NCBI GenBank assembly: GCA_019113395.1
Contig: DXHL01000019.1
Coordinates: 62,001-126,000 of the forward strand
From: Candidatus Rikenella faecigallinarum
Lineage (GTDB): Bacteria; Bacteroidota; Bacteroidia; Bacteroidales; Rikenellaceae
Direction of reading: 5' to 3'
Length of the DNA stretch: 64,000 bases
Below the pieces are notes generated by a model. That model did no database searches. It was not told where the DNA came from and saw only the letters and a program-made list of their open reading frames with translations. The position numbers and the translations under genes are program-made. Positions within the stretch are counted from its first letter, which is position 1, and each line of letters starts with the position of its first letter. Positions 8,285-29,013 of this stretch are shown piece after piece.

Positions 8285-9577
8285 CTATCGCCCGCTCTGA
8301 GCCAGAGCCTGCTCGATGTCCGCAATAATATCGTCCGCATCCTCAATCCCCACCGAGAACCGTATCAGGTCGGGAGCCACACCAGCAGCAATCAGCTGTT
8401 CATCGGTCAGCTGCCGATGCGTATGACTGGCCGGATGGAGCACCGAAGTACGGGCATCGGCCACGTGCGTCACAATGGCGCATAGCTTCAGGCTGTCCAT
8501 AAAGTGAATCGACTCTTCGCGACCACCCTTCAACCCGAAAGTAATCACCCCGCACGTCCCGTTCGGCATATATTTCTGCGCCAATGCATGGTATTTGTTA
8601 CCCTCCAGCCCGGGGTAGTTCACCCAGGCCACCTTATCGGTCCGCGAGGCGAGGTATTCGGCCACCCGCTGCGCATTGGCACAGTGACGAGCCACCCGCA
8701 GGTGCAGCGTCTCCAGACCGATGTTCAGCAAAAAGGCGTTCTGCGGTGACTGAATCGACCCCAGGTCACGCATCAACTGGGCCGTGGCTTTCGTGATATA
8801 GGCACCTTTCCCGAAAGCCTTGGTGTAGGTCAGCCCGTGATAGGACTCGTCGGGTGCGGTCAGGCCCGGGAACTTGTCGGCATGCGCCTCCCAGTCAAAA
8901 TTCCCGCTGTCCACAATCGCCCCCCCGACAGCCGTTGCATGGCCGTCCATGTATTTGGTGGTCGAGTGAATCACAATGTCAGCGCCCCACTCGAACGGAC
9001 GGCAGTTAATCGGCGTCGGGAAGGTGTTGTCCACAATCAACGGCACCCCGTGAGCATGGGCAATCTGCGCAAATTTTTCGATGTCCAGTACGTTCAGCCC
9101 CGGGTTGGAAATGGTCTCGGCAAAAAGCGCCTTGGTATTGGGGCGGAAGGCACGGGCAATCTCTTCTGCCGGAGCATCCCCGTCCACAAAGGTCACCTCG
9201 ATGCCCATTTTCTTCATGGTCACGGCAAAGAGGTTGAAGGTTCCCCCGTAGATGGCCGACGCACTCACAAAGTGGTCACCCGCCGAACAGATGTTAAAGA
9301 TGGAGTAGAACGAAGCCGCCTGCCCCGACGAGGTAAGCATGGCCGCTACCCCACCCTCCAGCGCCGCAATCTTCGACGCTACGGCATCGTTGGTCGGATT
9401 CTGCAAACGGGTGTAAAAATAGCCCGAATCCTCCAGGTCGAACAGCCGCGCCATCTGCTCGCTGGTTTCGTATTTGAAGGTCGTACTCTGATAGATGGGC
9501 AACACCCTCGGCTCGCCCTTCTTGGGCTGCCAGCCGCCCTGCACACACAACGTCTCCCGCTTGAATTTCTTGTCCAT
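8285..9577 (-). CDS. metY: O-acetylhomoserine sulfhydrylase / aminocarboxypropyltransferase
   Basis: Cys/Met-metabolism PLP enzyme: FKRETLCVQGGW, YTRLQNPTN, PLP lysine in HSTTKYMDGH. Confidence 0.93.
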   Translation of the reverse strand: MDKKFKRETLCVQGGWQPKKGEPRVLPIYQSTTFKYETSEQMARLFDLEDSGYFYTRLQNPTNDAVASKIAALEGGVAAMLTSSGQAASFYSIFNICSAGDHFVSASAIYGGTFNLFAVTMKKMGIEVTFVDGDAPAEEIARAFRPNTKALFAETISNPGLNVLDIEKFAQIAHAHGVPLIVDNTFPTPINCRPFEWGADIVIHSTTKYMDGHATAVGGAIVDSGNFDWEAHADKFPGLTAPDESYHGLTYTKAFGKGAYITKATAQLMRDLGSIQSPQNAFLLNIGLETLHLRVARHCANAQRVAEYLASRTDKVAWVNYPGLEGNKYHALAQKYMPNGTCGVITFGLKGGREESIHFMDSLKLCAIVTHVADARTSVLHPASHTHRQLTDEQLIAAGVAPDLIRFSVGIEDADDIIADIEQALAQSGR

Positions 9578-9605: not shown

Positions 9606-9847
9606 GGAGGGTACTGTTCTCTTTGTGAACAAAGAGAACCAGAAAAACTTTAGAGCGCATCCCTGTGGGATGCTACTTTCCGTGCCGCCTCACTGTTGGG
9701 GCGCGACGGAGCGGGCGGCATCATATTACTTTACCTTTTGCCGCCCACTCGGCGCACCCCAAACAACAGGTAGTAACAGAACGTAATGTCCCCCGGCAGC
9801 TCTGGAAAGTTTCTTTGGTTCTTTCTTTTCAAAGAAAGAACAGTCCC
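9606..9847. repeat. Structured interspersed repeat copy 1 (~242 bp)
   Basis: Near-identical to 11960..12201; termini inverted repeats (GGGTACTGTTCTCTTTG / GGGACTGTTCTTTCTTTG), terminal and central hairpins. Confidence 0.93.
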
Positions 9848-9871
9848 AGACGAGCCGAGACACTAAACACA

Positions 9872-10411
9872 CTACTGTTCGGCCTTGATTTCGATAAGCA
9901 CGTCGTCTTTGCCGACGGTCTGGCCGGGGACAACCGTCACCTTGGTCACCGTTCCTTTCATGTGGGTCGAGATGGCGTTCTGCATTTTCATCGCCTCCAG
10001 TACCAGCAACGCCTCCCCATTCCCAACGGTTTGGCCCTCCGACACGAAAACATCCAATATCTTGCCCGGCATCGGAGCCTTGATGACCTCTTTTTTCGAG
10101 AGACCGGCTTTGGCCGCCAGCATCCGTTTACGCGTCAGCGAGAAGGGCGTTTCGACCGAAAAATTGTAGCTCACCCCGTTCAGCGTTATGCTGTACGTAT
10201 TGGCACTCTGCTGCGTAACCTCGTACGGATAGCGCATCCCGTTGCACGAAAGGACATTCACTCCGTCGGCTTCCTGAACCAGGTCGATACGAATCGGTTT
10301 CCGTTGGTAACGGTACTCGTAATTGTTCTTGACCGAAAACTCAAACTCGGCATTGGTATCCGTGTTGAGCGCGATAAGTTTTGTAGTATTGCTCGGTTTC
10401 TTAGGTGTCAT
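9872..10411 (-). CDS. Biotin carboxyl carrier protein (acetyl/propionyl-CoA carboxylase or methylmalonyl-CoA decarboxylase type)
   Basis: Biotinylation motif LVLEAMKMQNAISTHMKGTV, biotinyl domain APMPGKILDVFVSEG. Confidence 0.92.
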   Translation of the reverse strand: MTPKKPSNTTKLIALNTDTNAEFEFSVKNNYEYRYQRKPIRIDLVQEADGVNVLSCNGMRYPYEVTQQSANTYSITLNGVSYNFSVETPFSLTRKRMLAAKAGLSKKEVIKAPMPGKILDVFVSEGQTVGNGEALLVLEAMKMQNAISTHMKGTVTKVTVVPGQTVGKDDVLIEIKAEQ

Positions 10412-10429
10412 GGTCAGAGTGGCTTAGGA

Positions 10430-11914
10430 TTACAAGTTACGGATACGACGGTTAAGCACCCAGGGGTCGATGCCTGTTTCAGGACCCACATCGGGCACCG
10501 TTTCGTGCGTGTACTGGTAGAGGGCCAGCATGGCGGCCATCAACTCTTCGTCGGGTTCGCGATAGACGAGCGATTCGAGTTTGGTTTCGATAAACGAAGT
10601 GTCGAAATCACCGCTGCAGAACGACGCATTGTGCAACACCGCCTTGCAGAACGGAATGGTCGTTTTGACCCCTTTGATATGGAACCGTTCGAGGGCCGAC
10701 AACGTCCGTTCGATAGCCTGATTACGGTCTTTGCCATGCACAATCAGCTTGGCAATCATCGAATCGAACCAGGGGGTAATCTCCGACCCCGGGACAATAC
10801 CCGTGTCGATACGGATGTTGTCACCCTGCGGCAGACGCAACTGTTTGATGGTTCCCATCGACGGGGTGAAGTTGGCCTGCACGTCTTCCGCATTAATGCG
10901 GCATTCGATGGCCCAACCGTTCAGTTTCACATCGCTTTGCCGGATGGGGAGTTTCTCGCCCGAGGCAATACGCAGCTGCAACTCCACGAGGTCAAGACCC
11001 GTAATGGCTTCCGTAATCGGATGTTCCACCTGGATACGGGTATTCATCTCCATAAAGTAGAAGTTTTTGTTTTTGTCCAGCAAAAACTCTACCGTCCCCA
11101 GACTTTCATAGCCGGCTCCTTTGGCCAGTTTCACCGCCACGCGCGCCATTTTATTGCGCAGGGTGGCATCCAGTGCCGACGAAGGAGCCTCTTCGAGCAG
11201 TTTCTGGTGTTTACGCTGCACGGAGCATTCGCGTTCGCCCAGGTGAACCACATTGCCGTGTGCATCAGCCACCACCTGGAACTCGATATGTTTGGGGTTT
11301 TCGAGGTACTTTTCGATGAATACCGACGGGTCGCCAAAAGCGCTCTGCGCTTCGGACGATGCCGCATGGAACATCCGTTCCATTTCGCTCTGCTTGTGCA
11401 CGATACGCATCCCGCGTCCGCCACCGCCCGAGGCTGCCTTGATAATCACCGGATACCCGATTTTCTTGGCAATCTTCACCCCCTCCTTCACATCCTTGAC
11501 ACTCCCCTCACTGCCCTGCAACATCGGTACTCCGTTTTTGGCGGCAATCTCCTTGGCGATAATCTTGTCCCCCATGTCCTTGATGAGTTTGGCGGGCGGA
11601 CCCACAAACTTCACCCCGGCATCCGTACACTTCTGGGCAAAATCGGCATTCTCCGACAAATACCCGTAACCCGGGTGCATGGCCTGAATTTTATTGTCCA
11701 CGGCCAGTTTTACCAGGTTGTCAATGTCCAGAAATTCAGGTGTCGTACCATCGGTTTCGGGAAAGTCCAACACGTGGTCCGCAAAATTCAGGTAGACCGC
11801 ATTGGGCTCCTTAACGGTGCGAATGACATAGGTCTTTATCCCCATGCGTTTGGCAGTGCGGCAGATGCGGATGGCAATCTCACCGCGATTGGCTATCAGG
11901 AGCGACTTTATCAT
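10430..11914 (-). CDS. accC: Biotin carboxylase subunit (AccC/PccA-like)
   Basis: MIKSLLIANRGEIAIRICRTAKRMGI, ATP-grasp KAASGGGGRGMR, EMNTRIQVEHPITE. Confidence 0.95.
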   Translation of the reverse strand: MIKSLLIANRGEIAIRICRTAKRMGIKTYVIRTVKEPNAVYLNFADHVLDFPETDGTTPEFLDIDNLVKLAVDNKIQAMHPGYGYLSENADFAQKCTDAGVKFVGPPAKLIKDMGDKIIAKEIAAKNGVPMLQGSEGSVKDVKEGVKIAKKIGYPVIIKAASGGGGRGMRIVHKQSEMERMFHAASSEAQSAFGDPSVFIEKYLENPKHIEFQVVADAHGNVVHLGERECSVQRKHQKLLEEAPSSALDATLRNKMARVAVKLAKGAGYESLGTVEFLLDKNKNFYFMEMNTRIQVEHPITEAITGLDLVELQLRIASGEKLPIRQSDVKLNGWAIECRINAEDVQANFTPSMGTIKQLRLPQGDNIRIDTGIVPGSEITPWFDSMIAKLIVHGKDRNQAIERTLSALERFHIKGVKTTIPFCKAVLHNASFCSGDFDTSFIETKLESLVYREPDEELMAAMLALYQYTHETVPDVGPETGIDPWVLNRRIRNL

Positions 11915-11959
11915 ATCTTTCCTTTTAGGTGTTCTTTGTGGGAATGGTGGTATGTGACT

Positions 11960-12201
11960 GGAGGGTACTGTTCTCTTTGTGAACAAAGAGAACCAGAAAA
12001 ACTTTAGAGCGCATCCCTGCGGGATGCTACCTTCCGTGCTGCCTCACTTGTTGGGGCGCGACGGAGCGGGCGGCATCATATTACTTTACCTTTTGCCGCC
12101 CACTCGGCGCACCCCAAACAACGGGTAAAGACTGAACATAGTCCGCCGGCAGCCTCTGGAAAGTTTCTTTGGTTCTTTCTTTTCAAAGAAAGAACGGTTC
12201 C
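11960..12201. repeat. Structured interspersed repeat copy 2 (~242 bp)
   Basis: Near-identical to 9606..9847, same orientation. Confidence 0.93.
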
Positions 12202-12251
12202 GGCAAATCACACACAACTCTCACAAAGAACGGTTAAAAAACAAATATCGA

Positions 12252-13796
12252 TTAAAGCGGTGTGTTACCGTGTTTGCGACGCGGCAGGCTCACCGATTTT
12301 TTCTCCAGCGTCTTGAGGGCGTTGATAATTTTTTCGCGGGTGAAACGAGGGTCGATAACCTCGTCGATAAACCCTTTTTCGTCCGCTACGTAGGGGTTGG
12401 CAATCTCCTCGCGGTATTTGGCCGAGAGTTCCTTTTTGAGAGCCGCCGGGTCTTCGGCTTCGGCCAGTTCCTTCCGGTAGAGGATAGCCGTGGCGCCGTC
12501 GGGTCCCATCACGGCGATTTCGGCCGTCGGCCATGCGTAGCAGAAGTCACCGCCGATACCCTTGCTGTTCATCACGATGTAGGCACCGCCATAGGCTTTA
12601 CGCAGGATAACGGTAATCTTCGGAACCGTGGCACGCGTGTAGGAGTAGAGCAGTTTAGCCCCGTGGCGGATGATACCGGCGTGTTCCTGGTCGGTACCCG
12701 GCAGGAAGCCCGGCACATCTTCGAACGTAACAATCGGGATATTGAAACTGTCGCAGAAGTTGATAAACCGCGCCGCTTTCACCGAAGCATCAATGTCGAG
12801 CGTCCCGGCCATCACCTTGGGTTGGTTGGCGATAACCCCGACCACATAGCCGCCGATACGGGTCAGCCCCGTCACGATATTGCGGGCATGCCCGGCCCCC
12901 ACTTCGAGGAAACGGCCGTGGTCCGTAATCAGACGAATCACCTCCAGCACATCGTAGGGTTTGTCGGGGTCATCGGGCACAATATCGAGCAGCGCCTCTT
13001 CGGCACGGTCAGCCGGGTCGTCGGTACCCACGAAAGGCGGGTTTTCGATGTTGTTGGCCGGCAGGAACGACAGCAGCATTTTAATCCCCTTGATGGTATT
13101 TTCATCGTCGCTGAAGACGAAGTCGGCCACCCCGGTGCGGGTCGAGTGTACCGAAGCACCGCCGAGTTCTTCGGCCGTCACCTCTTCGTTCAACACCTGC
13201 CGCACGACATCCGGCCCCGTAACGAACATGTAGCTGGTCGATTCGGTCATGAAGATAAAGTCCGTGAGGGCGGGCGAGTAGACAGCCCCCCCGGCAGCCG
13301 GACCCATGATGGCCGAGATTTGGGGAATCACGCCCGAGGAGAGGACATTCTGACGGAAGATGTTGGCATAGCCGTTCAGGCTGGTAATACCCTCCTGGAT
13401 ACGTGCACCGCCCGAGTCGATAAGGGCAATCAGGGGTGAGCCCGTTTTGAGGGCCATGCTTTGGATTTTGACAATCTTGGCCGCGTGGACCGAGCCGAGC
13501 GACCCCCCCAGCACGTTAAAGTCCTGCGAGAAGGCGTAGACCTGTTTGCCTCCCACCGTGCCGTAACCGGTAATGACCCCGTCGCCCAGTGCGTTGGTGG
13601 ACTTGCCGAATCCGCCGGCAGCAGCCGGTGTCGCATAGGCATCGACCTCTTCGAACTCACCGTTGTCGAAGAGCAGCTCCATGCGTTCACGGGCAGTCAG
13701 TTTCCCGCGGTTGTGCTGTTTTTCGTAATATTTCGCATCGTACTGTTTCTCCAGCGCGGCCTGGCGCGCCAGGAATTTTTCGTATGCTTTTCCCAT
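12252..13796 (-). CDS. Acyl-CoA carboxylase beta / methylmalonyl-CoA carboxyltransferase subunit
   Basis: Carboxyltransferase domain: NRGKLTARERMELLFDNGEFEE, GGSLGSVHAAKIVK, MGPAAGGAVYSPALTDF, FEDVPGFLPGTDQEHAGIIRHGAKLLYSY. Confidence 0.95.
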   Translation of the reverse strand: MGKAYEKFLARQAALEKQYDAKYYEKQHNRGKLTARERMELLFDNGEFEEVDAYATPAAAGGFGKSTNALGDGVITGYGTVGGKQVYAFSQDFNVLGGSLGSVHAAKIVKIQSMALKTGSPLIALIDSGGARIQEGITSLNGYANIFRQNVLSSGVIPQISAIMGPAAGGAVYSPALTDFIFMTESTSYMFVTGPDVVRQVLNEEVTAEELGGASVHSTRTGVADFVFSDDENTIKGIKMLLSFLPANNIENPPFVGTDDPADRAEEALLDIVPDDPDKPYDVLEVIRLITDHGRFLEVGAGHARNIVTGLTRIGGYVVGVIANQPKVMAGTLDIDASVKAARFINFCDSFNIPIVTFEDVPGFLPGTDQEHAGIIRHGAKLLYSYTRATVPKITVILRKAYGGAYIVMNSKGIGGDFCYAWPTAEIAVMGPDGATAILYRKELAEAEDPAALKKELSAKYREEIANPYVADEKGFIDEVIDPRFTREKIINALKTLEKKSVSLPRRKHGNTPL

Positions 13797-28902: not shown

Positions 28903-28917
28903 CCATCGATTGTGACC

Positions 28918-28962
28918 GAGTGCTCCGGCCGTTTCGCACGATGCGAAACGGCCGGAGCACTC
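28918..28962 (+). terminator. 21-bp perfect-stem hairpin
   Basis: gagtgctccggccgtttcgca-cga-tgcgaaacggccggagcactc; followed by C-run rather than T-run. Confidence 0.5.
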
Positions 28963-29013
28963 CCCCCCACTCAATACCAAGGGCGGCACGCACTGCGCAG
29001 CTGCCCTTTGCCT

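Follow-up and report, generated by a model that had tools for sequence, protein, structure and literature searches.

What are the two structured repeats that flank the accC- and accB-like genes of Candidatus Rikenella faecigallinarum, and by which processes did they spread and take shape? In the window, i.e., the 64,000-nt stretch analysed here (contig DXHL01000019.1, positions 62,001 to 126,000), a sequence-only reading had described a near-identical, co-oriented pair of about 242 bp and placed it in a MITE/REP-type family. The pair holds up: the two copies are 93% identical across 242 bp and lie on the same strand (E=4e-100). As outlined below, the repeats are members of a dispersed, non-coding, MITE-like family of the Rikenellaceae, which is built as concentric palindromes comprising an outer stem, terminal hairpins, asymmetric boxes and a central stem.

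Two repeats in a minus-strand gene cluster

Every gene surrounding the repeats is encoded on the minus strand, where the order is mmdA/pccB-like, copy 2, accC, accB, copy 1 and metY-like. The names metY, accB and accC, initially proposed from the letters only, are backed by Pfam. The repeats do fill intercistronic gaps as had been suggested, yet their placing needed correction: the accB-metY gap holds copy 1, and the gap between mmdA/pccB and accC holds copy 2. Downstream of copy 1 the metY start (9577) follows after 28 nt, and the accC ATG (11914) follows copy 2 after 45 nt, which agrees with the spacing given before.

8285-9577, minus strand: metY-like PLP enzyme (PF01053), downstream neighbour of copy 1
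9606-9847, plus strand: core of copy 1, in the accB-metY gap
9616-9639, plus strand: left terminal hairpin of copy 1, GTTCTCTTTG-TGAA-CAAAGAGAAC
9640-9651, plus strand: left subterminal box CAGAAAAACTTT; the right box AAAGTTTCTTTG, its imperfect partner, directly precedes 9818
9657-9673, plus strand: second, small hairpin of copy 1, GCATCCC-TGT-GGGATGC
9696-9762, plus strand: central stem-loop of copy 1 (arms 9696-9719 and 9740-9762, loop 9720-9739)
9818-9841, plus strand: right terminal hairpin of copy 1, GTTCTTTCTTT-TC-AAAGAAAGAAC
9872-10411, minus strand: accB-like biotin carrier protein (PF00364)
10430-11914, minus strand: accC-like biotin carboxylase (PF00289/PF02786/PF02785)
11924-12237, plus strand: copy 2 with its outer stem, a palindromic unit of 314 bp (arms 11924-11943 and 12219-12237)
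11960-12201, plus strand: core of copy 2, in the mmdA-accC gap
11970-11993, plus strand: left terminal hairpin of copy 2
12011-12027: small hairpin of copy 2, GCATCCC/GGGATGC
12051-12117, plus strand: central stem-loop of copy 2 (arms 12051-12074 and 12095-12117)
12172-12195, plus strand: right terminal hairpin of copy 2
12252-13796, minus strand: mmdA/pccB-like carboxyltransferase (PF01039), upstream neighbour of copy 2

Architecture of the element

The terminal hairpins, the GCATCCC/GGGATGC hairpin and the long central stem of the initial description are all located in both copies. Along the core follow the left hairpin, the box C(A/G)(G/A)AAAAACTTT, the small hairpin, a variable spacer, the central stem, a second spacer, the right box and the right hairpin. 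The left box is conserved throughout the genus and slightly altered in related genera; left and right box are imperfect mirror images, and their asymmetry is preserved in other genera. The central stem is near-perfect, with arms of up to about 25 bp and a loop of about 20 nt. As single strands, the 242-mers fold far more stably than shuffled sequences (z of -8.7 and -10.2).

The 242-bp unit is real but does not represent the whole palindrome, being a core inside an outer stem. In most cases the core is enclosed by such a further stem, which in copy 2 closes a multi-branched structure (DNA fold z of -7.6). In R. microfusus DSM 15922 the outer stem belongs to the conserved portion of the repeat and carries the fixed tip TTAAYCGTTCGTTTATTYGTAC across 102 ends; the same tip also encloses quite different interiors. 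Additional modules sit within the loops of hairpins. In several R. microfusus copies (L190, L197, L201, L247 and L250) the left terminal hairpin harbours, within its loop, a second module (CCGACGCTGCCAGCGAATCC...GCGAAGTTAAAGAGAAC), and two R. microfusus sites (L238 and L240) have another repeat (GGCGACYATATACGACCTTACRCAAGTCCCG...) in common, with the same tip GCACGAATAAACGAAYGRTTAA at its end. At L215:1202-1295 a 93-nt outer stem has one composite hairpin and lacks an interior, as would result from loss of the core between the two hairpins.

A dispersed family in the Rikenellaceae

A copy-number check across the source genome and its relatives, as had been proposed, uncovers a dispersed family that extends beyond the two local copies and underwent lineage-specific expansion. 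The window genome (Rikenella, G000, 2.07 Mb) contains five full copies plus a solitary hairpin. In R. microfusus the query gave 80 partial matches, and hairpin or tip pairs point to about 54 separate elements. Copies are also present in other Rikenella species and in Millionella. The same architecture, with different hairpin sequences, recurs in other genera of the Rikenellaceae (g4, g6, g10 and g13) and also in a second family of the Bacteroidales (G174). A phylum-wide pattern search matched two of 396 genomes, which we count as no evidence of wide spread. The plasmids and phages searched yielded no match to the family, and viral contigs none to one terminal hairpin. Many contigs of Rikenella sp. 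HAN023 (L074, L081, L092, L094, L099, L112, L113, L123, L130 and others) stop inside an element; draft genomes therefore undercount the family.

The copies lie merely 2.35 kb apart, as a segmental duplication confined to the accCB region would have it, but that origin is scarcely credible and is refuted by the unduplicated neighbouring genes and by the further copies elsewhere in the window genome and in many relatives.

One gap, different interiors

Orthologous gaps permit the comparison of elements at the same site. At the mmdA-accC gap a palindrome of 227-391 bp is present in all seven species readable there, none of which offers a clean empty site. The interiors differ, and the outer arms vary in sequence among species while their pairing is kept. 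Twelve gaps, matched on both flanks, are common to at least two species, and at seven of them the core is flipped in one species or more; this sample is enriched, as the loci were picked because a hairpin was present. Gaps occupied in several species could reflect an ancient insertion or repeated insertion. The context of gene orientation derived from longest ORFs was discarded, since antisense frames are long and the assignment hence unreliable.

At mmdA-accC, the window genome, R. microfusus, Lapin015 and SC0320 have copies that score higher against other copies from the same genome (median local scores 126-162) than against each other (70-116). This order is reversed for Lapin016 and U127164, whose copies resemble each other (150) and are unlike the few other copies compared. 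In most species tested, interiors thus mostly match the consensus of their own genome over the orthologous copy, a pattern of concerted evolution.

Arm covariation, loop inversion and a proposed role of template switching

Among 33 R. microfusus copies, both partners of a pair had changed in 119 cells of the proposed helices, compared to 32 in shuffled controls (none of 500 as high) and at most 31 with partners slid. Likewise, 93% of the cells are paired, versus at most 57% upon sliding the partners. The covarying helices include the counterpart of the central stem of copy 1, and chimeras that join two copies lose the central stem (score 10 versus 22). Loops are inverted as well: among 87 pairs of similar loops, 34 are in inverted and 53 in the same orientation, while shuffled loops gave 12 of 14360.

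Abraham and Hazkani-Covo identified the homogenisation of arms and the inversion of spacers as the two outcomes of a polymerase switching templates at inverted repeats (PMC8604942), and according to Monttinen and Loytynoja, template switching is able to create and maintain hairpins (PMC8794818). Both marks, covarying arms and spacer inversion, are present in the Rikenella family, along with flips at the level of the core. The systems described in these studies are single hairpins in genes, whereas the present elements constitute a dispersed family in which several layers are nested and loops measure 20 nt. The family is new in sequence and architecture, its nesting being unusual, and the mechanism proposed for its remodelling is already known.

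Judging from the pattern of sequence change, template switching appears to be the best-supported and most economical account of the remodelling. During replication, switching between the arms of inverted repeats would hold the arms identical, and the same process would invert loops and whole cores. Spread and homogenisation of the family would be due to ectopic exchange among its copies, to transposition by some enzyme, or to both. Taken together, the best explanation, which we hold to be probable, is a family of concentric palindromes that is remodelled by template switching and spread by ectopic exchange and/or transposition. At known orthologous sites it provides a natural record of palindrome evolution in bacteria, in which arms are locked, loops and cores flip and layers are exchanged.

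Empty sites and the mode of spread

The element sites of R. microfusus were looked up in the window genome, of which about 0.9 Mb was compared. Among 14 orthologous gaps, 11 lack the element, two are occupied in both genomes and one has other gene content. At one empty site beside a stop codon, ..AAATAA|CCGTTCG... with the element corresponds to ..AAATAA|TTAATCC... without it. These are genuine empty sites, and hence copies come and go. The second sign anticipated from such a comparison, a target-site duplication, was not detected: for stretches of 2-6 nt, at offsets from 0 to 7, flank identity is near chance; a palindromic TA/TTAA duplication could stay hidden. The family is multi-copy, non-coding and short, possesses terminal inverted repeats and is missing from most of the orthologous sites compared, all of which are attributes of MITEs.

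Transposases were sought with three Pfam families in eight Rikenella genomes, several of which are incomplete drafts; positive controls match in known genomes. PF01609 (DDE_Tnp_1, IS4/IS5) and PF01797 (Y1/RAYT) were undetected in all eight, and PF00665 (rve) yielded one match in R. microfusus below, and none above, the curated cut-off. IS4/IS5 and rve transposases as movers were dropped, given that no match exceeded the cut-off in the eight genomes. No autonomous copy occurs among the tip-flanked units inspected, and the one 2-kb tip pair (L245) comprises an element and an ordinary gene. On the scale of these eight genomes and three Pfam families, common transposases appear to be scarce in the genus.

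A classic MITE, i.e., an internally deleted DDE insertion sequence with the tip TTAAYCGTTCG..., which is moved in trans and whose palindromes are remodelled as a side effect, is a possible but rather doubtful alternative. It accommodates the empty sites, the conservation of the outermost tip across 102 R. microfusus ends and the occurrence of this tip around quite different interiors. Yet there is neither a target duplication nor, among the tip units inspected, a transposase between tips, and the outer arms sometimes consist of local gene sequence, which a transposon would not carry. The lack of DDE_Tnp_1 and of rve matches over the cut-off also speaks against it, in a search that covered these two families and PF01797.

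The missing target duplication and the arms composed of local sequence speak for a transposase-free family, in which nested palindromes would spread, homogenise and re-orient by ectopic template switching and conversion, with hairpins as the points of landing and switching. The mosaic modules nested within loops, the concerted evolution and three major transposase families without a match over the cut-off point in the same direction. We nevertheless regard this option as unlikely: a constant tip over about 50 R. microfusus sites resembles a defined transposable unit, and the search covered three transposase families only. Overall, the conserved tip and the empty sites seem to favour a transposable unit, while local arms, the lack of target duplications and undetected transposases leave room for transposase-free copying.

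Possible roles in RNA or gene regulation

As a further alternative, the palindromes might be cis-acting RNA or DNA structures under selection, which would function in mRNA stability, processing, mmdA/accC attenuation or as a boundary, and the covariation would be ordinary compensatory evolution. The very strong predicted folding is in keeping with such a role, as is the occupation of the mmdA-accC gap in every readable species, even though the window genome lacks the element at most of the R. microfusus sites compared. However, covariation and loop inversion are equally predicted by template switching in the absence of selection, and the majority of sites are not conserved between species. Scans for intrinsic terminators and sigma-70 promoters gave site counts equal to those of shuffled sequences, for which reason these functions were dropped; a riboswitch or other known RNA was also dropped, since an Rfam 15 scan at the gathering score returned chance-level miRNA matches only. 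In view of these results, selection on structure is improbable as the main cause of the pattern. On the preferred reading of a palindrome family remodelled by template switching, transcribed copies should nonetheless form very stable hairpins according to the folding models, and a co-transcribed copy, e.g., in the mmdA-accC-accB operon, might affect the mRNA.

Strong covariation of stems is commonly taken as proof of a functional RNA. A note of caution is warranted, because such covariation may also arise from template switching. In a related genus (L023 and L024, 1171-1700 in each) an outer arm copies the final eight codons of the adjacent gene (KAIVKTQ* and KAVVKVG*, respectively), and between the two species the coding arm and its non-coding mirror arm differ in concert, so that arm homogenisation extends into a coding 3' end.

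Relation to known repetitive elements

The Bacteroidales MITEs of P. gingivalis comprise MITE239, MITE464, MITE700 and BrickBuilt; BrickBuilt shares its terminal inverted repeats (TIRs) with IS5-family ISPg elements, and internal tandem repeats are found in BrickBuilt and 464/PgRS (PMC4596501). Like these MITEs, the Rikenella elements are intergenic and non-coding, number at most some tens of copies per genome, form long predicted hairpins and have TIR-like ends, and some loci are conserved between related species. In contrast to BrickBuilt, they contain no internal tandem repeats and no partner insertion sequence with matching ends was found, DDE_Tnp_1 being undetected in the eight Rikenella genomes. 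The published TIR sequences (PMC4596501) differ from the Rikenella tip, and nested palindromes, covarying arms and inversions of loops and cores set the family apart from the P. gingivalis MITEs.

A REPIN-type origin, with mobilisation by a RAYT/TnpA-REP enzyme (HUH Y1), perhaps of the Bacteroidetes subclass 2.6 with 'atypical' structures, is very improbable. The elements do share with REP/REPIN sequences (BIMEs) two inverted hairpin units, mosaicism and intergenic position in many copies (PMC6006769, PMC3733652), and Bacteroidetes TnpA-REP genes are flanked by atypical hairpins that recur elsewhere in the genome (PMC6006769). However, upon inspection the terminal hairpins lack the GT[AG]G tetranucleotide at their foot, and the elements are much longer and possess a hypervariable, near-perfect central stem. 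The search for a TnpA-REP proposed at the outset also came back negative: apart from its absence from all eight Rikenella genomes, PF01797 is present in four of 150 genomes of the family, and in the sole element-bearing one (G016) the match is broken by stops. The RAYT/REPIN reading was dropped, as PF01797 is missing from the eight genomes of the genus. The initial MITE/REP classification is hence supported in outline in its MITE-like part, through the many copies and the empty sites in relatives, and not in its REP/RAYT part.

Mitochondrial hairpin elements of sponges reportedly combine multiple hairpins, an intergenic location and apparent mobility without a known enzyme. The Rikenella family shares these traits. 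It differs from the repetitive, hairpin-forming mobile elements of sponge mitochondria (PMC2800124) in that it resides on a bacterial chromosome, is larger and nested, and has conserved subterminal boxes.

For the type strain R. microfusus DSM 15922 a genome is publicly available, which renders both the rates of remodelling and the mobilising enzyme testable. Within the window, positions 28905-28975 form another inverted repeat with 34-nt arms, which are 82% complementary and 3 nt apart and apparently unrelated to the palindrome family.
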